The notes under the pieces were generated by a model. The model saw nothing but the letters and a program-made list of their open reading frames with translations, was not told where the DNA came from and made no database searches. A program made the translations under genes and the position numbers. 20,040 bases of DNA. It comes from a virus. Below, piece after piece: positions 5,380 to 20,040 of this stretch (position 1 is the first letter of the stretch; each line of letters starts with the position of its first letter). The DNA lies in the IMG/VR virus record IMGVR_UViG_3300008119_000787, positions 1 to 20,040 of that record; one strand, written 5' to 3'.

Positions 5380-5386
5380 TCAAACT

Positions 5387-5425
5387 TCGGCTTATTTATA
5401 ATCAATAAACATTAATAAAAGCCGA
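5387..5425 (+). repeat. Nested inverted repeat between the helicase and SOD fusion genes
   Basis: Arms TCGGCTT (5387-5393) and AAGCCGA (5419-5425) are perfectly complementary. Inside them TTTAT (5395-5399) pairs with ATAAA (5405-5409) around an AATCA loop. The structure lies entirely in the 50-base gap and ends 4 bases before the ATG at 5430. No T-run follows, so it is not a classic terminator; it could be a leader structure, a processing site or an attenuator. Pairing was judged by eye and no folding energy was computed. Confidence 0.5.
5393..5400 (+). promoter_or_regulatory. TATTTATA octamer upstream of the SOD fusion gene
   Basis: An exact TATTTATA in the sense direction, 29 bases before the ATG at 5430. 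It is embedded in the left half of the inverted repeat at 5387-5425. Promoter or translation-signal function is inferred from its recurrence before other genes. Confidence 0.3.
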
Positions 5426-5429
5426 CCTT

Positions 5430-6974
5430 ATGAAGAATCTTAAAAATAGGATTGAAGTAATTGAAGAAGATTTACAAAAAAAAGAAGTTAAAAGACAACA
5501 AGAGCAAAAAGTAAGAAGAGTTGTCGCAGAAGCCAAAAATATTAAGATAGAAAGATTACCCTATTCTTATTCAGCACTAAAACAATTTATTGACCCCGAA
5601 ACCATGAGTGTTCATTACAACAAACACTACAAAGGTTATGTTGATAAATTAAACGGAGCATTAAAAGATGATGAAGATTTGACCTTAGAAGAAATTGTCA
5701 AAACAATAGACAGTTTCAACAAGTTCATCAGAAATAATGCGGGTGGTGCTTATAACCACCAATTGTTTTGGAAAATGTTAACTCCAAAAACAACAAAACC
5801 CGGTCCAATCACACTTAAAAAAATTAATCAAAGTTTTTCATCATTGTCTGACTTTAAAAAGAAATTTGAAGGTCAATCAAAAGATAGATTTGGTTCAGGT
5901 TGGTGTTGGTTAGTTCTTACAAAAAGAGGAACCTTAAAAATTATGACAACCCCAAATCAAGACAACCCCCTTATGGATGTTGTTGACCAAGGTGGTTATC
6001 CAATTTTAGGTTTGGATTTATGGGAACACGCATATTATCTGAAATATAGAAACAGAAAAGAAGAATATATAAAAAACTTTTGGAGAGTTGTTAATTGGGA
6101 TTACGTAGAATCAGAACTTTCAAGAAAGTTGGATAAAACGGTAAAAGAATCTACAACAGCCAAAGAATTTTTGACTGAAGCTGTTAAAAGTGAACCTTGT
6201 TCAACACAAGACAAAATGGCTTCAAAATTATTGTTTAATACAAACAGAGATGTTCTTAATCTATACAAAAATGCAATCATGCAAATTTTGAAAGATACAT
6301 TTGCCGATAGATACTACAACAAAGATGAATATGCTAAAGGACAAATGTCGGGTGTATATAATTTGGAAGGTGAAGGTAGGTCGGTAATCAATTACTTGAA
6401 TACAAACTACAGTGCATTTTGTGTGTTAAAAAAAGATATAAACAAATATCTTACAAAAGTAGGTGAAGAACCAATTATTTTTTCAGGAAAAACACCAAGA
6501 GAACAAGTTAATGAAATGGCAAGAATGTTGAAAGTTCTAAACAAAGTTAAGTTTAGAGTATTCTCATTGGAATCTGAAACATTTAAAACAATTATGAGTG
6601 TGATGGGGGTTACTTCAGACAAAGGTAATAAAACTGAAGATGCTGTTGTTGAAAAACTTAAAAAACAATTTGGTGATGAAAATGTGACTCGTATTGGTGA
6701 ACTTGGAAACAAAGAAGATATGATGACGGGTGTTGATGTTAAGATTATGGTTGATGGTGTTGAAAAAACTGCACAAGTAAAACCATTCAGTTACATAACA
6801 AAAAGTGATGACATGTATAAAGTTGACGGAACCGCAAATGTTAAAAAATATCAAACTAATTGGATGATTTTTATGAAACGTTTGGATGATATGGTCATCT
6901 TTGATAATTCAAATACAAAAATAATTGACGGAGTTTATTATTTCCCAATTGATGCCAAGTTGTATCAATTATAA
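5430..6974 (+). CDS. Fe/Mn superoxide dismutase fused to a possible PD-(D/E)XK nuclease-like domain
   Basis: A 514-residue fusion. Residues 1-40 are a Lys/Glu-rich likely coiled coil. Residues 41-235 are an Fe/Mn superoxide dismutase domain: LPYSYSAL, SVHYNKHYKGYV, NHQLFW, FGSGWCWLV, LDLWEHAYY and WRVVNWDYV match the family in order. All four metal ligands are present (H62, H110, D196, H200), so superoxide dismutation is plausible. A linker has KEFLTEA (245-251), resembling the T4 internal-protein targeting/cleavage sequence. Residues 251-390 are unrecognised. Residues 401-451 fit a PD-(D/E)XK nuclease core with a Gln variant: E403, GVD436, then AQVK (448-451), as in Mrr-like enzymes. Normal SODs are about 200 residues. 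The SOD call is firm; the nuclease call is tentative. The gene lies between helicase and neck genes. Confidence 0.85.
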   Translation: MKNLKNRIEVIEEDLQKKEVKRQQEQKVRRVVAEAKNIKIERLPYSYSALKQFIDPETMSVHYNKHYKGYVDKLNGALKDDEDLTLEEIVKTIDSFNKFIRNNAGGAYNHQLFWKMLTPKTTKPGPITLKKINQSFSSLSDFKKKFEGQSKDRFGSGWCWLVLTKRGTLKIMTTPNQDNPLMDVVDQGGYPILGLDLWEHAYYLKYRNRKEEYIKNFWRVVNWDYVESELSRKLDKTVKESTTAKEFLTEAVKSEPCSTQDKMASKLLFNTNRDVLNLYKNAIMQILKDTFADRYYNKDEYAKGQMSGVYNLEGEGRSVINYLNTNYSAFCVLKKDINKYLTKVGEEPIIFSGKTPREQVNEMARMLKVLNKVKFRVFSLESETFKTIMSVMGVTSDKGNKTEDAVVEKLKKQFGDENVTRIGELGNKEDMMTGVDVKIMVDGVEKTAQVKPFSYITKSDDMYKVDGTANVKKYQTNWMIFMKRLDDMVIFDNSNTKIIDGVYYFPIDAKLYQL

Positions 6975-6982
6975 TAACTTGA

Positions 6983-6990
6983 TATTTATA
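6983..6990 (+). promoter_or_regulatory. TATTTATA octamer before the gp13-like gene
   Basis: An exact TATTTATA in the sense direction, 11 bases before the ATG at 7002, inside the 27-base gap after the SOD fusion gene. It is followed by an A-rich leader (TATAAAAAACT). It could be a late promoter element or part of an A/T-rich translation leader. Confidence 0.35.
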
Positions 6991-11754: not shown

Positions 11755-11762
11755 TATAAATA
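11755..11762 (-). promoter_or_regulatory. TATTTATA octamer before the BppU-like gene
   Basis: The sense strand reads TATTTATA (plus strand TATAAATA), 4 bases before the ATG at 11750, in the 16-base gap after the glycosyltransferase gene. It suggests that the small virion gene has its own expression signal separate from the glycan block. Confidence 0.35.
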
Positions 11763-11766
11763 CTCA

Positions 11767-13440
11767 TTAAGATTCTTTTCTTAACGAACCGTCATAAAAT
11801 TCAAACCTATCATGTTCTGTTGGTGTCATTAACAACATTGCTGGTGTAATGTTTCCTTTAATTGTTTCTTGGAACATGTAACTCATCCAAGTTTGTTCAA
11901 AAGGTCTTGCCCATGTTGTCTCTAAGAACATTTTCTTGTTTCCATGACGTGTAACTACCTGTGGCCAGTTACAATAATAGATTTCACCATCAATAAACGG
12001 AATTCCATTATGTGTTCTAATATTTTTAAATTTTGTTTTTGGGGCATTTGGGTCTTGTCCGTGAACAGGTAGTGTTGGTTTTTCAGGCCAATGTTTTACT
12101 CTAAAATCTTGTGGTACATTATACCAAGACCATTGTATTCCATTATCACCAAAAAATTCTGAATAGTTAAATTTTAAAAAGTCATAATGATATTTTTTTG
12201 CAATTTCTATTGTATTTTTGTATAAATTCTTGGCGTATCTGTTGAAACCATTTCTACAAACCTCACCTTTATTTGGGTAAAAGAACATGTCATCTTCAAA
12301 GAAGAAATAAAAATCAAATCCATTTTCTTCTGAGTGTTCCGCAATCCATTGTCTACCACCACAAATACCTAAATTATCTTTCTTGATATGTTCAAAACCA
12401 TATTTTTCACAAAGTTCCAAGTATCTTTCGGTAGTTGATAAATCGGATGAATTATCTAATAAAAACTTTTTTGGTTTATCAATAAAGTCCATATCATAAA
12501 CTTCCATAGATTTCATTAAAGTTTCAAATTGATTTGGACTATTAAATGTTATTACATATAAAGCAGAATTATTAGTATCCAAATCATCATTTAATGTGGT
12601 GTTTACTGACTTACATTTTTTTTCTAATGTATCATTTTTTAAATCTTCAAAAAACTTACCAAACAATCCATTACCTTCAATTTCAAAATAATCAATAATA
12701 TCAGAATGTTTATAACACATTATTGTGAATATTGATTCTTCAGTTCCCATTAAATTTTGTGATAAAGTTGAACTTAATAGGTTGTAATAAATTCCATTAA
12801 TGTCACCGATTAAACTTTTTGGACCACCAAAAAAACCACCACGTGCAACCATATCAACTTTTGTTCCCGCAAATTGATTTATATTGTCATATGTAAAACC
12901 ATGTATTTCTGTATTGGCTTCGTATGGGAAACAAACAAAACTAAATTTGTTTGTATATTTTGATAATTTATTTAGAACTTTATCGTGAGTAAAATACCCT
13001 GGATGTACGGTATTTGTTAATCCAGCGTCAATCCAAAACATTTGTTCTGAATCAAATGAGTCCATAATTTTAGCGTCATTAAGTAAAAATACTTTAGACA
13101 TTACCAATGGATTATACAATTCTAATTTTGCTTGTGTTGATTCTGATAACCAACCCGCTTGATTATACCAATTTGGGTTTGTCCTAATTTCTTGAATTTT
13201 ATCATAAAATTCATTTTTAAACCAATCTTGAGAACGGGTAATAAACATTGTATTTTCACGAGTTCTTCTTTCAAAAACAAATGATTCTAATTCAGAATCA
13301 CCGAAAATAATCATATTATTTTCTACTTGTAATAGTTGTTCAAACTTATCCAAATAATGTTGAAAAGAACGTGACCATCCTTCTGATAATCCGTCTCTTT
13401 TAATATTCCAAAGTCCTGTTACTAAAGTTAATCCACTCAT
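11767..13440 (-). CDS. Two-domain glycosyltransferase: HtrL/YibB-like plus GT-A-like
   Basis: A 557-residue protein with two probable transferase domains. Residues 1-265 match the HtrL/YibB (WlaTC-like) family: LTLVTGLWNIKRDG at the start, RSFQHYLDKFEQLL (24-37), NNMIIFGDSEL (41-51), FWIDAGL (135-141) and GGFFGG (201-206). Residues 295-545 look like a GT-A fold: ALYVITFNSPNQF (293-305), LGICGGRQWIAEHS (357-370), and an acidic FFFEDDMFFY strand (379-388) that could supply the metal-binding motif. The sugar donor and acceptor cannot be read from sequence. The ATG overlaps the upstream methyltransferase stop by 4 bases (ATGA). It is last in the glycan block and is probably used to modify virion proteins or host glycans. 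Confidence 0.75.
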   Translation of the reverse strand: MSGLTLVTGLWNIKRDGLSEGWSRSFQHYLDKFEQLLQVENNMIIFGDSELESFVFERRTRENTMFITRSQDWFKNEFYDKIQEIRTNPNWYNQAGWLSESTQAKLELYNPLVMSKVFLLNDAKIMDSFDSEQMFWIDAGLTNTVHPGYFTHDKVLNKLSKYTNKFSFVCFPYEANTEIHGFTYDNINQFAGTKVDMVARGGFFGGPKSLIGDINGIYYNLLSSTLSQNLMGTEESIFTIMCYKHSDIIDYFEIEGNGLFGKFFEDLKNDTLEKKCKSVNTTLNDDLDTNNSALYVITFNSPNQFETLMKSMEVYDMDFIDKPKKFLLDNSSDLSTTERYLELCEKYGFEHIKKDNLGICGGRQWIAEHSEENGFDFYFFFEDDMFFYPNKGEVCRNGFNRYAKNLYKNTIEIAKKYHYDFLKFNYSEFFGDNGIQWSWYNVPQDFRVKHWPEKPTLPVHGQDPNAPKTKFKNIRTHNGIPFIDGEIYYCNWPQVVTRHGNKKMFLETTWARPFEQTWMSYMFQETIKGNITPAMLLMTPTEHDRFEFYDGSLRKES

Positions 13441-14069
13441 AATTCTTTTCTCCTACAAGTCCAAACAACATTTTCAAATGTATCTTTATCATAGATTTTT
13501 AAATTATTTTCTTCAGACGCTTGTGATATATCCGAATCAGCAATTTCATGCCAATTCCAAATTTTATTTAAAATTTTAGATTCAAAAACTTCTTTATTTT
13601 CCGCATAATCGTGAGCCAAAATAAAATCACCATTTTTAATATATTTTGAAATTACATTGAATTCTCCAATCTTCCATCCACCATCACATAAAACTATTGT
13701 AATACCATCTTGTTGGATATAATCTTTTACCTCTTGGTCAAAATCTAAAAACCCTTCAGTAAAAATGTTTTCAACACGAATATCTATACCACGAGCAATA
13801 ATTTCGTCATACCAAGGATGTCTACTTATATCATAACTCCTAATGTCAGTATCTAAATTAAGTTCATTACAACTAAGTTTTAAAAAGGTTGTAAACCCAC
13901 CCAAAGATGTCCCAATTTCTAATATTCTTTTTGGTTTAATATCTTTGATAAAGTTATAAAACACTTCAAATGCACCATGATATTGTTGTGCTGTATGTCC
14001 TTGAAATGCCGATAAACTATCATTGGCTTCAAGATTAGTAAATTTTGTTATATTCTCTTGTATATTCAT
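13437..14069 (-). CDS. Class I SAM-dependent methyltransferase
   Basis: A 210-residue Rossmann-fold methyltransferase. Motif I is RILEIGTSLGGFT (residues 48-60), followed by RSYDIS (about 82-87) for the second SAM-contact strand. ITIVLCDGGWKIGEFNVISKYIKNGDFILAHDYAENKE resembles the metal-binding and late-strand region of cephalosporin hydroxylase/rhamnosyl O-methyltransferase-like enzymes (Methyltransf_24 group). Position inside a glycosyltransferase block suggests a sugar O-methylation role, which is inference. Its stop overlaps the next ATG by 4 bases, and it starts 5 bases after the neighbouring glycosyltransferase gene stop. Confidence 0.75.
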   Translation of the reverse strand: MNIQENITKFTNLEANDSLSAFQGHTAQQYHGAFEVFYNFIKDIKPKRILEIGTSLGGFTTFLKLSCNELNLDTDIRSYDISRHPWYDEIIARGIDIRVENIFTEGFLDFDQEVKDYIQQDGITIVLCDGGWKIGEFNVISKYIKNGDFILAHDYAENKEVFESKILNKIWNWHEIADSDISQASEENNLKIYDKDTFENVVWTCRRKEL

Positions 14070-14074
14070 ATTAT

Positions 14075-14788
14075 TTAAAATCTTACGTGTAAATTACCCG
14101 CTTTGTCATGAAATTCAAAACAAGCCGGTATATGACCTCTAAAACTATCCCAATCCCATTTCATTTCAGCTTCTAATGCTGATACACCGATATCAAATCC
14201 ATCAGGATAATTTCTTATGTTGTTATGTATTGAGTACCATAAAAACTCTTCCCACCTTCTTACAAAATATCTAAATTTCCAATTGTTTTTAAACACCATA
14301 AATTGTTCATTAACAACATGAGCTTCATCCCATTTTGTATGTTCAAACACATGATAATCAACCATTTTTCTATCAAAAAAACAATTACTCATATTTTGTT
14401 TATGGTCACCAATTTTAGAAGGTCTTTCAAATAAAAAATCTAAATTATTCTTTTCCATATGATTGAACATATTAAATAATTTATCCTCGCTAAAATTTTC
14501 TGTCATTCTCCAATCGGCATCATTATATATTATATAATCATACCCTTTATCCAAACAATGTTTTAATGACAAAACTTTCAAGTTTAAGAAAAATGAAAAA
14601 CCCGGATTTCCATCATCATATCTGTCTAATTTAAATAAATCTAAATTAACTTTTGGACCAACTTCACAAAGTTCGTTAGTTGTAATATTAAAATCCGCCG
14701 AGCATTTTTCGCTATATTTTGTATAACACTCAGAAGCGTTTTTAACGTAGGACTCTCCTACAGCCAATGTTGTAAAAATATATTTCAT
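14075..14788 (-). CDS. GT-A type glycosyltransferase with DAD motif
   Basis: A 237-residue probable nucleotide-sugar-dependent glycosyltransferase. It begins YIFTTLAVGESYVKNASECYTKYSEKC, a typical GT-A first strand and helix. YIIYNDADWRM (residues 85-95) provides a DxD motif at D90-A91-D92 for metal and nucleotide binding. NEQFMVFKN and RRWEEFLWYSIHNNIRNYPDGFDIG further match small GT8/GT6-like enzymes, with an acidic IGVSALEAEM region likely near the acceptor site. The family number is not certain. The ATG overlaps the stop of the upstream GT10-like gene by one base (TAATG), so the two are translationally coupled. Confidence 0.7.
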   Translation of the reverse strand: MKYIFTTLAVGESYVKNASECYTKYSEKCSADFNITTNELCEVGPKVNLDLFKLDRYDDGNPGFSFFLNLKVLSLKHCLDKGYDYIIYNDADWRMTENFSEDKLFNMFNHMEKNNLDFLFERPSKIGDHKQNMSNCFFDRKMVDYHVFEHTKWDEAHVVNEQFMVFKNNWKFRYFVRRWEEFLWYSIHNNIRNYPDGFDIGVSALEAEMKWDWDSFRGHIPACFEFHDKAGNLHVRF

Positions 14789-15771
14789 TATGACTCTACA
14801 ATTTTTTCTAAGAAATTAAGGGTGTAATCAAAACTATAATAATCAGGTAATTTATTATCTACAAAAATTGGTGATTCAATATACTTTTTATATAATGTTT
14901 CGTTAGTATCAATTTCTTTAATTAAAGATAAAAAATCATTTAAGTCAGTAAAGTCGTGTAAATTAATAAAACTTTCAGGATTAAAACCTTCTTCTAAAAT
15001 ATGTTGATTACCAAAAAATATTGGAATTGCACCACTAAAGAACGCATGGTATATTTTTTCTTGTAAAATATAATCTGTATTAGTATAATGAATTGACATG
15101 TTAAACTTGTATTTTTGAAACAGTCCTATCTTTTCTCTATAAGTCAAACCATCAATTCTACCAAGATACAAGTGATTTTGCCATTGGTACTTATTTAATG
15201 TCTCGTCACCATGTAGTGTTTGTCTCCAAGGACCTGATGAACTAACCATTTTATATTCAGATAATTTATCAAAAACTTGACCTCTAAAATCATTATTTGA
15301 TGCTTGAGTAATTGAACAAAAACCAGTATTTCTTTTTGATATTACATCAAAATTTCTCTTTTCAGTTAACCAATTTAAAGGACTATCAACTAATCTTGCC
15401 TCATCATATAAAGTCCATACATCAAACACACCTGATGGTTGTCTCAAATATCTTTCGTGTTCAAACTTATTATATCCTAAAGCCCATTGGTTTTCATTAG
15501 ATAAGATTGGACTTCTAAAATCAGCAACTTCACCTGAAACATATAAAAATTTTTTATTCTTATCAGATTGATTATGGTTTGTTGGTAATTGACCTGTGTA
15601 CGTATCAATTTGATTTTCATTGTAATTTAAATCAGAGTGTATTACAATGTCAGGATTTATTGGGTCAATAATTACATTATATTTTTTTGATAAAATAAAT
15701 TTAAAGTAATTCATCCAACTATGTTGACCAACATTTGGAAACCCTTGTCTGGTTATTCTAATTGTTTTCAT
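14788..15771 (-). CDS. GT10-family fucosyltransferase-like protein
   Basis: A 327-residue glycosyltransferase resembling GT10 alpha-1,3/1,4-fucosyltransferases, which transfer fucose from GDP-fucose. The diagnostic region is YKFNMSIHYTNTDYILQEKIYHAFFSGAIPIFFGN (residues 221-255): it matches the family pattern of a YKF strand, an Asn-rich turn, and YxxEK with E238 and K239, followed by a G-x-x-P segment. SGEVADF (79-85) and SKRNTGFCSI (145-154) match the earlier donor-domain segments. Length agrees with bacterial members. Its ATG overlaps the upstream PLOD-like gene by 14 bases. No fucose-donor synthesis gene is visible here, so GDP-fucose would come from the host or from elsewhere in the phage. 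Confidence 0.82.
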   Translation of the reverse strand: MKTIRITRQGFPNVGQHSWMNYFKFILSKKYNVIIDPINPDIVIHSDLNYNENQIDTYTGQLPTNHNQSDKNKKFLYVSGEVADFRSPILSNENQWALGYNKFEHERYLRQPSGVFDVWTLYDEARLVDSPLNWLTEKRNFDVISKRNTGFCSITQASNNDFRGQVFDKLSEYKMVSSSGPWRQTLHGDETLNKYQWQNHLYLGRIDGLTYREKIGLFQKYKFNMSIHYTNTDYILQEKIYHAFFSGAIPIFFGNQHILEEGFNPESFINLHDFTDLNDFLSLIKEIDTNETLYKKYIESPIFVDNKLPDYYSFDYTLNFLEKIVES

Positions 15772-16462
15772 TTAAAGTTTGCGTTAATTTAATGGTGTTT
15801 TCATTATGTGGACCATTATCATGTATAATATAGGCATCCAAATTTAAAAGTGAAACTTCTCCATTTTCTATCTTAACACTATCTTTAGTGTCTAAAGTGC
15901 TAAAGAAAAAATCACGTTCTTGGTCAATAATAATATCATCGTTAAGTAGGTATTGAATTGTCCATCTACCTTGGTCATCAATACCTGTCTGATATTCTTT
16001 CTCAATTATATCTTTTAGGTGATTTACAATTTTATCAGTGTATCCAAAGTAAGTACCAGAATTTAAATACTTACTGTCATTAATGGCACGTTTATTTTCA
16101 TACAAATGAGTATAGTTTGTTGGTGGCCATAAACCTTTTTCGGCACCCATAATAAGGCTACAATTTAAAGATTGAAACTTTTCTATAATACCTTCAGGAG
16201 ATTTAATAAAGTTGGTATCTGTGGCATCTAAAAATAAAATATAATCATAGTTCCCAACAATATTTGATTCAATATACTCCAACACTTTTACTGTCTTGTA
16301 AAAGAATAATTTATCATAATAAGAACCATCGGTAATCAAACCAGAATTTCTTACAACATGAATATCTTCAGGTGAAAAATATTTTAAAGCATTCTTATAA
16401 AAAGATGGTTCATAATATTCGGGGTAGTCAAATAATGCCGTTATTAATGCAACATTTTTCAT
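15758..16462 (-). CDS. PLOD/GT25-like glycosyltransferase
   Basis: A 234-residue protein like the glycosyltransferase domain of collagen lysyl hydroxylases (PLOD/LH3) and related phage and virus enzymes. Ordered landmarks are LITALFDYPEYY (residues 6-17), YDYILFLDATDTNFIKSPEGI (72-92) with D79 and D82, GAEKGLWPP (106-114), KYLNSGTYFGY (131-141), and DDQGRW (162-167). These are the UDP-sugar and metal site landmarks of that group. Animal members add Gal or Glc to hydroxylysine; the phage acceptor is unknown. The gene overlaps the GT10-like gene by 14 bases and follows a methyltransferase gene after one base, consistent with one operon. Confidence 0.78.
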   Translation of the reverse strand: MKNVALITALFDYPEYYEPSFYKNALKYFSPEDIHVVRNSGLITDGSYYDKLFFYKTVKVLEYIESNIVGNYDYILFLDATDTNFIKSPEGIIEKFQSLNCSLIMGAEKGLWPPTNYTHLYENKRAINDSKYLNSGTYFGYTDKIVNHLKDIIEKEYQTGIDDQGRWTIQYLLNDDIIIDQERDFFFSTLDTKDSVKIENGEVSLLNLDAYIIHDNGPHNENTIKLTQTLNENN

Positions 16463-16463
16463 A

Positions 16464-17102
16464 TTAATTACCTGATATTTGTTTATAAAATTCTTTGATT
16501 AATTCACCATCACTATTAAAGATATTGTCTTGTGCAAAAAACTTATATGGTATTGTGTCTTCCCAAAAAACAACAAGTTCATTACCTAAGTTATTTTCTA
16601 AAACTTTGTCTGTTTCTTCAAAAACCTCAATAAATGGGTATTTTGGGTATATACAAATCATATCATCTTTAACATCAATAATTTGTTTATGATGTGCATT
16701 ACCCCTATATTTGTTGTCCCATAAAAACATAAATTCATTATATTTTGATGGGATTGCAATATAACCCTTTTTAGATATTTTAGGTAGTAATTCTAATAAA
16801 TCTGTTGGTGTTATTACATCTTCTAATGTGTGTGAACAGATGCTGTAATCAAACTTACCATGTTCCTCAACATAGTTCAATAACTCAGCCCAAGTGTTTT
16901 TATCTTGAATGTTAAAATCAAAAAATTTAACACCTTCTTGTTCTATTTTAACAATGTCGGCAACAAATTTACATTCAGGGTAAGACCAAAATTGTAGAGA
17001 TGCTCCAATATCAATTGTTTTATAGTCATTATCTGATATTATTTTTTTTACGTCACCGATTAGGTTCTTAACAGAACCATTATATTGCCAATGTGTTATC
17101 AT
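16464..17102 (-). CDS. SAM-dependent methyltransferase-like protein
   Basis: A 212-residue Rossmann-fold protein. TIDIGASLQFWSY (residues 29-41) is a degenerate motif I without the usual GxGxG. VADIVKIEQEGVKFFDFNIQD supplies the second strand, and FDYSICSHTLEDVITPTDLLELLPKISKKGYIAIPSK matches the fourth and fifth motifs of class I methyltransferases of the Methyltransf_11/23 type. His-rich NAHHKQII later may sit near the active site. The acceptor is unknown; the block suggests glycan or virion modification. It overlaps the upstream FkbM gene by 23 bases. It could be inactive or bind another ligand because motif I is atypical. Confidence 0.6.
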   Translation of the reverse strand: MITHWQYNGSVKNLIGDVKKIISDNDYKTIDIGASLQFWSYPECKFVADIVKIEQEGVKFFDFNIQDKNTWAELLNYVEEHGKFDYSICSHTLEDVITPTDLLELLPKISKKGYIAIPSKYNEFMFLWDNKYRGNAHHKQIIDVKDDMICIYPKYPFIEVFEETDKVLENNLGNELVVFWEDTIPYKFFAQDNIFNSDGELIKEFYKQISGN

Positions 17103-17709
17103 ATTTTTTGTTTAAGAATAGTATATCTTGTTGAATTAATTCGTAGGTCAAAGGATGATTTATGTTTCCAATAAGTTCAACAGGTTTAAAACCCAAGTTA
17201 TCCATATATTCATAAACAAACTCTTTTGTGGGGGCGTTTTGATTGTATTCCATTAAAGATACTTCCATTAGAATACCTTTAGCTTCTTTAATGATATCTA
17301 ACCCACCATTTATAATATCAATTTCAGAACCTTGAACATCAATTTTAATTAAATCAAATTTTTGATTGTTTAAAAGATTAGAAAGAGTTTTAGTTTGTTT
17401 TTTTTCTATAAGAATTTGGTCATCATCATAAAAAGATGTATTTTCACGGTAAATTGAATTACCTGTACATCTTGGTTCATTTTTTCTAATGTAGAAATCA
17501 ACTTCTTTTTCGGAATCACTTAATAAACAGATAGAGTAATCAACGTTTAAAGTTTCTAATACCACTTCACAACTTTCACTACCCTCAATTAAATAATAGT
17601 ATGAATTTGGGAAGATGTTTTTAATTTCATTATAAAATTGACCAACATTTGCACCAATATCCAAAATAGATTTCGGTTCAAAATATTTTTTAATACTTTC
17701 TAAACTCAT
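17080..17709 (-). CDS. FkbM-family methyltransferase
   Basis: A 209-residue methyltransferase of the FkbM type, which commonly O-methylates sugars. Motif I is SILDIGANVGQF (residues 14-25), then YYLIEGSESCEVVL (38-51) for the acidic SAM contact. The family hallmark FDLIKIDVQGSEIDIINGG (118-136) is intact, followed by LMEVSLMEYN. Length agrees with stand-alone members. It starts 3 bases after the upstream methyltransferase gene stop and overlaps the next gene by 23 bases. It probably methylates sugar residues added by the neighbouring glycosyltransferases, though the acceptor is inferred. Confidence 0.82.
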   Translation of the reverse strand: MSLESIKKYFEPKSILDIGANVGQFYNEIKNIFPNSYYYLIEGSESCEVVLETLNVDYSICLLSDSEKEVDFYIRKNEPRCTGNSIYRENTSFYDDDQILIEKKQTKTLSNLLNNQKFDLIKIDVQGSEIDIINGGLDIIKEAKGILMEVSLMEYNQNAPTKEFVYEYMDNLGFKPVELIGNINHPLTYELIQQDILFLNKKYDNTLAI

Positions 17710-17712
17710 AAA

Positions 17713-18270
17713 TTATTTAAAATAAACAACACCTGTTCCAGTTGAGTGTCCAATGTTTGTAATGTCATATTTTTCTTTGGTGATGGAACCCCAAAATCTT
17801 TCCATTTCAAAATTCAAATGAATATCATCAAGTAACAAATAACCTTTATAGTTAATTGACACCAAATGGTCATAAAATTCTTTTTCAAACGTACCATCGT
17901 GGTAAGTGTCCAACATAATATATTTTGAACCCAAAATAACACTGTTGTAATTACCATTTAAAACATTATCAATAATAAACTCAGCGTTCAATGGTGTATA
18001 ATTTAAATCAAATTCATTTCCAACATTAAAAGAACGAACTTTATTTTTTGAGTTTACAGAAAATGCAAGTGCTGAACAACCTTTAAGTGTTCCAACATCC
18101 AATATGTCAACCAAATCATCATTTTGTGAAATATGTGCCAACAATCTATAATGTTCTTGACCTGATTTTGACATAAAATATCCTTGATATTCCGAAGAAT
18201 TAATTCTTTGTGAGTAAGGGAACAAATCAATATTGTCCAATTGTTCGTTTGTAATTGATAAAAAATCCAT
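17713..18270 (-). CDS. Class I methyltransferase (Methyltransf_24-like)
   Basis: A 185-residue likely SAM-dependent methyltransferase. Motif I is DILDVGTLKGCSALAF (residues 55-70), preceded by the helix GQEHYRLLAHIS. After an N-terminal region, VRSFNVGNEFDLN supplies strand two, KYIMLDTYHDG strand four, and GYLLLDDIHLNFEM (residues 142-155) a DD pair and His, which may bind a metal. This layout matches small O-methyltransferases of the Methyltransf_24 group. The ATG lies 3 bases after a TATTTATA octamer and 12 bases after the stop of the broken GlcNAc transferase gene. A role in glycan methylation is inferred from neighbours. Confidence 0.68.
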   Translation of the reverse strand: MDFLSITNEQLDNIDLFPYSQRINSSEYQGYFMSKSGQEHYRLLAHISQNDDLVDILDVGTLKGCSALAFSVNSKNKVRSFNVGNEFDLNYTPLNAEFIIDNVLNGNYNSVILGSKYIMLDTYHDGTFEKEFYDHLVSINYKGYLLLDDIHLNFEMERFWGSITKEKYDITNIGHSTGTGVVYFK

Positions 18271-18273
18271 GTT

Positions 18274-18281
18274 TATAAATA
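18274..18281 (-). promoter_or_regulatory. TATTTATA octamer before the first methyltransferase gene
   Basis: The sense strand reads TATTTATA (plus strand TATAAATA), filling the 11-base gap between the GlcNAc transferase stop and the ATG at 18270, with only AAC in between. It may let the downstream glycan genes be expressed without the broken gene upstream. Confidence 0.35.
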
Positions 18282-19277
18282 TTATAAGTTACCAGTTATT
18301 CTTTCACACCAATCTTTAGACACCGAGTGTGGCCAAACTACCCAATACTTAGGTTTATGTTCAGTTTGGAACTCTCTCCATACTTTACAATATCCATCAG
18401 GGTCATTTAACATCCTATCAATTTCTGCTTTATCAGCATCTTTTCTAAAGATTGTTTCATCATTTTCATTGTGGAAAGCAACAACCCAAAAGTCGTAATC
18501 CTTTTCAGGAACTCTATCAAATCCAACATCAATACAATGTTTGAATATTTGAGCAAAATTCTTTTTCCACTCTTCTTCAGATTCAAAGTTATATGGATTT
18601 GGTGGATAATTTTTATCCAAAGTATATTGTTGTACCGCACGTTTTTCAAATAAAAGACCTGAATACTTTTCATAATCTCTTAATGTTCTAACTGTACCAA
18701 AACCATAAGGTCCATCATGACCTTCTTGAGTTTCACCATCCATACCAAACAATTTTCTGTTTGTAAAATGTGAGTGACTATTCTTGTTTCCCCAATCTTT
18801 ATCATCATCCCATTGTTTTGTTCTACCTTTACGAGTGTATTCGTGCCAAATCAAAACTTTATGTGGGTGAAACAAATCATAACCCCAAGTGTATGCACGA
18901 GCGGCAATTGAAATTTCCTCACCGTGGAAATAATATTCAGGGTTGTGTTGTACTTCTGTTGAGAATTGACCTAATGTAAAACAGTAGTGTGCTGAGTAGA
19001 AACGAGCCGTTACAGGTTCAGTTAAATTCTGCCAACCTGGAATTGTTTCAGGTAAGAAGAACACCGCACCTTCAGGAATAAATCTATCAAACGCCATTCT
19101 CCATGGTTCTTGAGTACGTCCTGCAGGGTCATTATCGGGGTCAAATGAAGATACATAACCTGTTAACAATGGTTTTTCATGTCCCTTCTTTTGAAGTTGT
19201 TTAATCATCTTAATCATCTCATCGTCCCAATTGGGAGCAAATCTCATGTGTGAGTCAAAACTGTCTTGCAATACCAA
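18282..19277 (-). CDS. GlcNAc-transferase-like glycosyltransferase, C-terminal part of a broken gene
   Basis: A 331-codon frame resembling the glycosyltransferase (GlcNAc) family that includes Skp1 GlcNAc-transferases. FDSHMRFAPNWDDEMIKMI (residues 7-25) is the family's metal-site region with the DSH triad, and GEEISIAARAYTWGYDLFHPHKVLIWHEY (119-147) is the conserved acceptor and active-site block. The C-terminal 120 residues form an additional domain (from about residue 210, DYEKYSGLLFEKR). The first codon is TTG immediately after an in-frame stop; the first ATG lies inside DSHM. The expected N-terminal donor-binding strand is encoded upstream in another frame (19255-19377), and about 60 residues of the family's middle are absent. 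It is therefore best read as the C-terminal part of a disrupted gene, or of one read by recoding. Confidence 0.7.
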   Translation of the reverse strand: MVLQDSFDSHMRFAPNWDDEMIKMIKQLQKKGHEKPLLTGYVSSFDPDNDPAGRTQEPWRMAFDRFIPEGAVFFLPETIPGWQNLTEPVTARFYSAHYCFTLGQFSTEVQHNPEYYFHGEEISIAARAYTWGYDLFHPHKVLIWHEYTRKGRTKQWDDDKDWGNKNSHSHFTNRKLFGMDGETQEGHDGPYGFGTVRTLRDYEKYSGLLFEKRAVQQYTLDKNYPPNPYNFESEEEWKKNFAQIFKHCIDVGFDRVPEKDYDFWVVAFHNENDETIFRKDADKAEIDRMLNDPDGYCKVWREFQTEHKPKYWVVWPHSVSKDWCERITGNL

Positions 19278-19434: not shown

Positions 19435-20040
19435 TTATCCTCCAACTACAACGTTTATTGAGTCAGCATTTGCACCTGAACCCCAAGTATAAGTGTATGT
19501 TCCTGGTGTTAATCCAAAACTAACGAATGATTGACCATTAAATGTTTGACTACTTGAAATTGCGGTTCCTGTTGTATAACCAACAGGGACTAATAATGAA
19601 TATGGTGCTGGTCCTTGTTTAATAACCCCAAATATATTACCACTTACTGATGTTTGAGACCCTCCTACTCCACCTGGTCCAAAATTAGGTGGTGTTGTTG
19701 TAAATCCGCTATATTGAACGGCATTTATTCCATTTGTACCCATTAAGAATGTTGCGTTACTAACTCCTAGTCCACCAAAACTAAAAGGTCCTGCACTTGG
19801 ATTAACAAGTGTTAAGTCATTTATGTTAAGTGAACCTGATGCCGACATTACAACATTACCACCTGACTCAACGATTGTCACACTAAGTCCTGAAGGTGTT
19901 GATGCCGATGTTGAAGTCGGTGTCGGTGTTTGAGTCGGAGTATCCGTTACAGTAGGTGTTGGTGTCTCAGTTGGTGTTTGAGTCGGAGTATCCGTTACAG
20001 TAGGTGTTGGTGTCTCAGTTGGTGTTTGAGTCGGAGTATC
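19435..20040 (-). CDS. Virion-like protein with Thr/Pro repeat linker (N-terminus cut by the window edge)
   Basis: The frame is open from the right edge to TAA at 19435-19437, giving 201 visible residues. About 46 N-terminal visible residues are a linker of alternating Thr/Pro with Gln, Glu, Asp and Val (TPTQTPTETPTPTVTD units). The rest is Gly/Ser/Thr/Val-rich beta sequence: VTIVESGGNVVMSASGSLNI, then FGGLGVSNATFLMGTNG, and a C-terminal GLTPGTYTYTWGSGANADSINVVVGG. The TYTWGSGANADS ending resembles the beta domains of secreted and surface proteins with PEP-CTERM-like C-terminal repeats, but no membrane anchor follows. It is probably a tail fibre, baseplate or decoration protein, with the linker a candidate for O-glycosylation. 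An internal GTG at 19881 is not the real start. It ends 57 bases before the glycan block. Confidence 0.65.
   Translation of the reverse strand, partial: DTPTQTPTETPTPTVTDTPTQTPTETPTPTVTDTPTQTPTPTSTSASTPSGLSVTIVESGGNVVMSASGSLNINDLTLVNPSAGPFSFGGLGVSNATFLMGTNGINAVQYSGFTTTPPNFGPGGVGGSQTSVSGNIFGVIKQGPAPYSLLVPVGYTTGTAISSSQTFNGQSFVSFGLTPGTYTYTWGSGANADSINVVVGG
19932..20040 (-). repeat. Perfect 48-bp tandem repeat encoding a Thr/Pro linker
   Basis: The 48-base unit beginning GAGTCGGAGTATCC starts at 19932, 19980 and 20028. It gives two full copies and part of a third, with no mismatch that I can see, and continues off the right edge. It encodes the 16-residue unit TPTVTDTPTQTPTETP. Identity at the DNA level suggests recent expansion or slippage. 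Confidence 0.9.

Follow-up and report, generated by a model that had tools for sequence, protein, structure and literature searches.

A candidate capsid-cargo polyprotein joining superoxide dismutase and a predicted nuclease in T4-like phages

The window, a stretch of 20,040 bases from the IMG/VR viral record IMGVR_UViG_3300008119_000787, encodes a family-B DNA polymerase, an SNF2-type helicase, a head-tail adaptor-like gene and, at 5430..6974 on the plus strand, a gene that runs from ATG to stop and specifies a 514-residue protein. This gene content, together with gp21 and gp23 in longer relatives, identifies the source as a T4-like phage, whose host probably belongs to the Bacteroidota. An initial annotation had described a superoxide dismutase (SOD) domain and a possible C-terminal PD-(D/E)XK domain within this one phage open reading frame, which we confirm; it had overlooked a 34-residue N-terminal tag, the linkers and the junctions marked by [V/I/L]xE at residues 34, 240 and 250. 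The gene comprises, all on the plus strand, the tag (residues 1-34; 5430..5531), a proposed capsid-targeting propeptide; a proposed mature SOD (residues 35-240; 5532..6149); a helical region preceding the nuclease core (residues 251-393; 6180..6608); and the PD-(D/E)XK nuclease core itself (residues 394-514; 6609..6971). Three proposed prohead-protease sites, VAE34/A (5523..5531), VKE240/S (6141..6149) and LTE250/A (6171..6179), separate these modules (slashes mark proposed cuts). We consider it probable that the gene encodes a virion-cargo polyprotein whose two enzymes would be cut apart in the prohead before being injected into the host.

A search for the same domain order in other phages found 71 full-length loci, encoding proteins of 508-555 residues, across many metagenomes, so the fusion is no accident of assembly. 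Relatives of the C-terminal part are encoded by at least 586 viral stretches. Gene order around the locus is conserved in the 22 relatives compared, with minus-strand genes, one of which reads like a tail sheath, followed by the SNF2 helicase, the SOD-nuclease gene, the adaptor gene and the DNA polymerase.

The SOD domain is complete. Both Pfam halves are present (Sod_Fe_N, E 5e-20; Sod_Fe_C, E 4e-38), spanning residues 40-228, and residues ~37-235 of the AlphaFold model align end to end with complete solved SOD chains (Z 27-30, rmsd ~1.5) at identities of mostly 40-49%, the best match being a Sphingobacterium MnSOD. The boundaries of the proposed mature SOD coincide with those of whole SOD chains. 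All four metal ligands named in the initial annotation, H62 (5613-5615), H110 (5757-5759), D196 (6015-6017) and H200 (6027-6029), are invariant among 22 divergent relatives. The same holds for H66, Y70 and Q177, which correspond to the second-sphere residues His30, Tyr34 and Gln146 of bacterial MnSOD. Given this invariance, an active, Mn-preferring enzyme is the natural prediction. Fe/Mn SODs are dimers.

Among cellular enzymes, SodA of Bacteroidota and the MnSOD of Sphingobacterium sp. T2 (5A9G, 6GSC) share with the phage domain the whole fold, the four ligands and the Mn-type second-sphere residues, at ~45-50% identity. The nearest cellular SODs, considered here as the 80 best hits, come nearly all from Bacteroidota, and the phage SODs form a single clade (support 100/100) apart from the nearest cellular SODs sampled, which suggests one acquisition and Bacteroidota hosts. 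Unlike their cellular counterparts, the phage SODs carry an added N-terminal tag and C-terminal nuclease. The C-terminal domain is matched by the predicted structure of a deposited protein from an uncultured Caudovirales phage, A0A6J5L953 (501 residues; TMq 0.89 at 32% identity), whose deposited name, 'superoxide dismutase', mentions neither nuclease nor tag. Stand-alone SOD genes also occur in Vibrio phage 2.275.O (L230:1-2037) and Pseudomonas phage MIJ3 (L231:1082-2007), where they lie near a gene annotated as a ClpS-like adaptor.

A fold search with the full-length model returned SODs only, and the C-terminal part (residues 241-514) was therefore modelled alone, with a mean pLDDT of 86. By Foldseek, residues 394-514 match I-Ssp6803I (probability 1.0 for the best chains) and archaeal Hjc (0.97 for the best); VIA-align returns Hjc, NhoI, a SPARDA effector, DpnI and RecU, with Z of 7.5-8.8 across 92-105 residues. 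In the PDB, every Foldseek match falls short of E 0.001, and a Z of about 8 is weak by itself. The prediction of a PD-(D/E)XK fold is nevertheless convincing, because the two scorings agree, their top matches are near-exclusively PD-(D/E)XK enzymes and the catalytic signature is invariant. E403 (6636-6638) lies in a long helix, D436 (6735-6737) opens the first core strand, and Q449 (6774-6776) and K451 (6780-6782) occupy the next strand. These four residues, placed as first annotated, are conserved in 41/41 representatives, although domain identity to the window protein drops to 26%, which rules out a chance match to the E...D...QxK signature; D430, Y474 and F481 are also among the invariant positions.

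The assignment as a predicted nuclease thus rests on conserved residues and fold matches, without any sequence-family match: Pfam, PHROGs, PADLOC and PDB sequences give the domain no credible name. Of the earlier suggestion of an Mrr-like glutamine, the signature position Q449 stands; a specific relationship to Mrr finds no sequence match in Pfam or the PDB, and none of 22 members matches Mrr or another named PD-(D/E)XK family in Pfam. A PADLOC hit to SduA in one relative (E 0.009) was set aside, as the match lies outside the catalytic core. I-Ssp6803I, archaeal Hjc and NhoI/Eco15I resemble the phage domain in core fold and E...D...QxK residues; they differ in showing no detectable sequence homology to it, and the phage protein has the additional helical region 251-393 and an SOD in front. 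Two models agree on confident helices for residues 251-393, to which no named fold could be assigned. A scan of bacterial and archaeal genomes confirmed no relatives of the nuclease, which leaves its function without a clue from cellular gene neighbourhoods. Among phage proteins, a 735-kb huge phage (LR756501) encodes a 290-residue stand-alone relative with the E...D...QxK residues and no obvious tag (L226:3743-4615), and a 1113-residue marine phage protein in BFVD shares the fold of the C-terminal nuclease domain (TMq 0.80).

The tag varies in sequence and length, yet ends in [V/I/L]xE with an invariant Glu in 39/39 representatives; the middle position of the motif (P2) is free, with nine different residues among the 39. 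An equally invariant [V/I/L]xE follows the SOD domain directly (E240; 39/39), and every one of the 39 linkers has a further [LIVM]xE ahead of a conserved cysteine, Cys257, corresponding to E250 in the window. In the full-length AlphaFold model, pLDDT falls below 50 only at residues 27-35 and 238-251, and the tag before them is predicted as a long helix. The N-terminal motif occurs in 6/80 and the C-terminal motif in 8/80 of the nearest cellular SODs. In T4, the prohead protease gp21 cuts after L/I-x-E and removes the N-terminal propeptides of internal proteins (PMC9026906), while Alt is cut at both ends, at ITE-6 and LTE-619 (PMC5694885). The [V/I/L]xE junctions correspond to this gp21 motif, which suggests that they are cleavage sites.

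A protease of this type is encoded in the phage group. Peptidase_S77 (gp21) was found in the contigs of 7/16 long relatives, and the same seven encode gp23. In 7/7 of these, gp23 reads LINE/A at residue 60, close to the end of the 65-residue propeptide of T4 gp23 (PMC9958956), and this points to a gp21-type protease whose specificity matches the junction motif. One of the seven is a 295-kb contig with a copy ~96% identical to the window protein.

The gene also appears to share a regulatory element with head-assembly genes. TATTTAT lies within 60 bases upstream of the gene in 41/41 representatives, against 2/41 for the reverse and 1.2 expected. It is likewise present ahead of gp21 and gp22 but absent ahead of gp23. 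In the window, the promoter-like element TATTTATA lies at 5393..5400 on the plus strand, 37 bases upstream of the ATG. Further copies occur at 6983-6990, again ahead of a plus-strand gene, and at 1767-1774, 11755-11762 and 18274-18281 for minus-strand genes; all are oriented with the gene and lie from a few to ~40 bases ahead of its start. Since TATTTATA stands upstream of 37/278 predicted genes in the 295-kb relative, compared with 12 in reverse, it is probably a promoter element of the phage group that is shared with assembly genes. The T4-type late promoter TATAAATA was considered and rejected; it precedes the gene in 3/41, about the chance level, the conserved element being TATTTAT. An imperfect inverted repeat (TTCGGCTTATT ... 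AATAAAAGCCGA) surrounds TATTTATA at 5384-5426 of the window, with similar repeats in many relatives, and is possibly the terminator of the helicase gene.

Natural variants show that the modules are separable. Seven loci lack the SOD and encode a 294-residue protein in which the tag leads through [IV]LSE/S into the nuclease; the same clean 294-residue frame in all seven argues against a frameshift, which we rejected. In one locus, L084, the nuclease is missing, and the protein stops roughly twelve residues past INE/G. Both forms keep the tag, and the modules part at the motifs. Three SOD-less loci and L084 were checked for synteny and occupy the same genomic place. Ten records were searched for a further SOD, and those with the SOD-less form showed none elsewhere, though most are fragments. 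The apparent truncations L032 and L048 look like frameshifts and were left out.

From the observed domains, conserved residues and motifs, domain-loss variants, upstream element and the gp21 and gp23 of relatives, we infer packaging, cleavage and ejection as follows. Residues 1-34 would act as a capsid-targeting propeptide that carries the precursor into the prohead core. There, a gp21-type protease would cut behind E34 and E240, and probably also behind E250, so that a stand-alone Mn-type SOD (35-240) and a PD-(D/E)XK nuclease (~251-514) are freed within the head. Both enzymes would then be ejected into the host along with the DNA. In the most speculative part of the proposal, the SOD may clear superoxide as infection begins, and the nuclease may cut host or competing DNA. 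The latter is the least certain step, as the fold fits a junction resolvase equally well. The initial annotation had suggested that one polypeptide may combine both activities. Its two domains are borne out; the joined protein is probably only a precursor, given the protease-type sites around the SOD, the separability of the domains in variants and a tag that points to head packaging. The uses it envisaged, superoxide handling and attack on host DNA, remain plausible by analogy.

Several points weigh against this proposal. The motif is only three residues long and weak in isolation, and a look-alike at E362 (Glu in 92%, P3 aliphatic in 94%) falls within a confident nuclease helix, where it is presumably structural. 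The motif occurs on average 2.4 times per linker and 1.2 times in shuffled linkers, just a twofold excess, so the weight falls on E34 and E240 being invariant; since the representatives share ancestry, 39/39 does not amount to 39 independent events. At E34, 5/39 representatives, including the window, have Val at P3, whereas the T4 motif is described with L/I, and most tags exceed the 10-19 residues of T4. The window contig, at 20 kb, shows no gp21 or gp23, both of which are seen in relatives. If packaged, the nuclease would share the head with phage DNA and would have to be kept inactive or act selectively. T4 offers a precedent for the mechanism: fusions to its tag package and deliver foreign proteins, nucleases among them, and a staphylococcal nuclease packaged in this way digested phage DNA only upon calcium addition (PMC9026906).

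The strongest competing explanation, which we regard as a possibility well short of an even chance, is that the nuclease serves a purpose in the virion or in replication for which it is packaged or assembled, such as trimming packaged DNA ends or resolving branches at packaging, and does not attack host DNA. Its closest folds include the Holliday-junction resolvases Hjc and RecU, and the gene adjoins neck, sheath and polymerase genes. Those folds also include restriction and homing endonucleases, so that the substrate cannot be read from the fold, and L084, which lacks the nuclease, indicates that it is dispensable there. We think it unlikely that the protein is instead a true bifunctional enzyme used in the infected cell with SOD and nuclease joined, the SOD dimer pairing two nuclease domains or guarding nuclease or DNA from oxidation and the tag serving as a coiled coil or docking helix. 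Retention of the fusion in 71 full-length loci, the predicted long helix of the tag and the dimeric nature of Fe/Mn SODs would suit such an enzyme. It is harder to reconcile with a tag kept in both SOD-less and nuclease-less variants, a disordered linker with invariant protease-type motifs and an upstream element common to head-assembly genes.

Still less probable, in our view, is a cytoplasmic auxiliary metabolic gene, in which a host-acquired SOD limits superoxide during infection and the C-terminal domain has decayed or merely binds DNA as a non-cleaving remnant. The Bacteroidota origin of the closest cellular SODs fits acquisition from hosts, and other phages have stand-alone SODs without a nuclease. 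A remnant would however not be expected to keep its catalytic residues in 41/41 representatives at identities down to 26%, nor to persist alone after loss of the SOD, and the tag would be left unexplained.

The proposed virion-cargo polyprotein most resembles the internal head proteins IPI, IPII and IPIII of T4 and Alt, whose N-terminal propeptides end in L/I-x-E-type sites (PMC9026906, PMC5694885). The phage group likewise has a gp21-type protease and a gp23 with a matching motif, and Alt, like the SOD-nuclease protein with its putative sites, has more than one gp21 site. In contrast to the T4 proteins, the cargo combines two enzymes in a polyprotein that is apparently cut between them, its tag is mostly longer, and its presence in the virion is proposed from sequence. 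The chlorovirus PBCV-1 offers a further parallel: the virion of this large dsDNA virus contains a late-expressed SOD as well as restriction endonucleases, the latter held to degrade host chromatin (PMC7019647). This is an analogy only, as the PBCV-1 enzyme is a Cu/Zn SOD encoded by a separate gene in an unrelated virus of a eukaryotic host.

In the 295-kb relative (IMGVR_UViG_3300027621_000003), otherwise dissimilar proteins have common N-terminal tags ending in aliphatic-x-Glu, for example MKNLLNISEEEKNRILEMHTSATNKHYL[NK]E/Q, MKKIIRLTESDLTRIVRRVISE/Q and MNLQENIxRIKxMMGLxxE. Genes with shared tags lie at 165728-166174 and 181516-182211, and at 173390-174190 and 175043-175477; others start at 102905, 170758, 186729 and 192274, and at 183028 and 190939. 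These proteins may represent an extensive capsid-targeted cargo in the phage group. Apart from the SOD-nuclease protein itself, no convincing bearer of the SOD-nuclease tag was found in this relative. Elsewhere in the window, a run of minus-strand genes past the DNA polymerase (11767-19277) resembles, by eye, glycosyltransferases and methyltransferases, and an incomplete minus-strand protein at the window end (19881-20040) contains Thr-Pro-rich tandem repeats (DTPTQTPTETPTPTVT).

On balance, we lean towards the view that a widespread T4-like lineage arms its capsid with an SOD and DNase polyprotein that is split by protease in the head for injection. The literature searched, in which subscription papers were partly covered, contains no description of a phage SOD-nuclease fusion or of a packaged phage SOD; both domains and the targeting system are of known kinds, and their combination appears new within that literature. 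Phage SOD genes are usually taken as metabolic helpers made during infection. Packaging and injection of the SOD with a nuclease, if borne out, would bring superoxide control forward to DNA entry, and capsid cargo would be produced in modular fashion as one polyprotein cut by the maturation protease. Such a two-enzyme, protease-split cargo would put the T4 targeting system to a new use, and a tag ending in L/I/V-x-E would provide a sequence rule for finding other injected proteins in this abundant and mostly unannotated group of phages.
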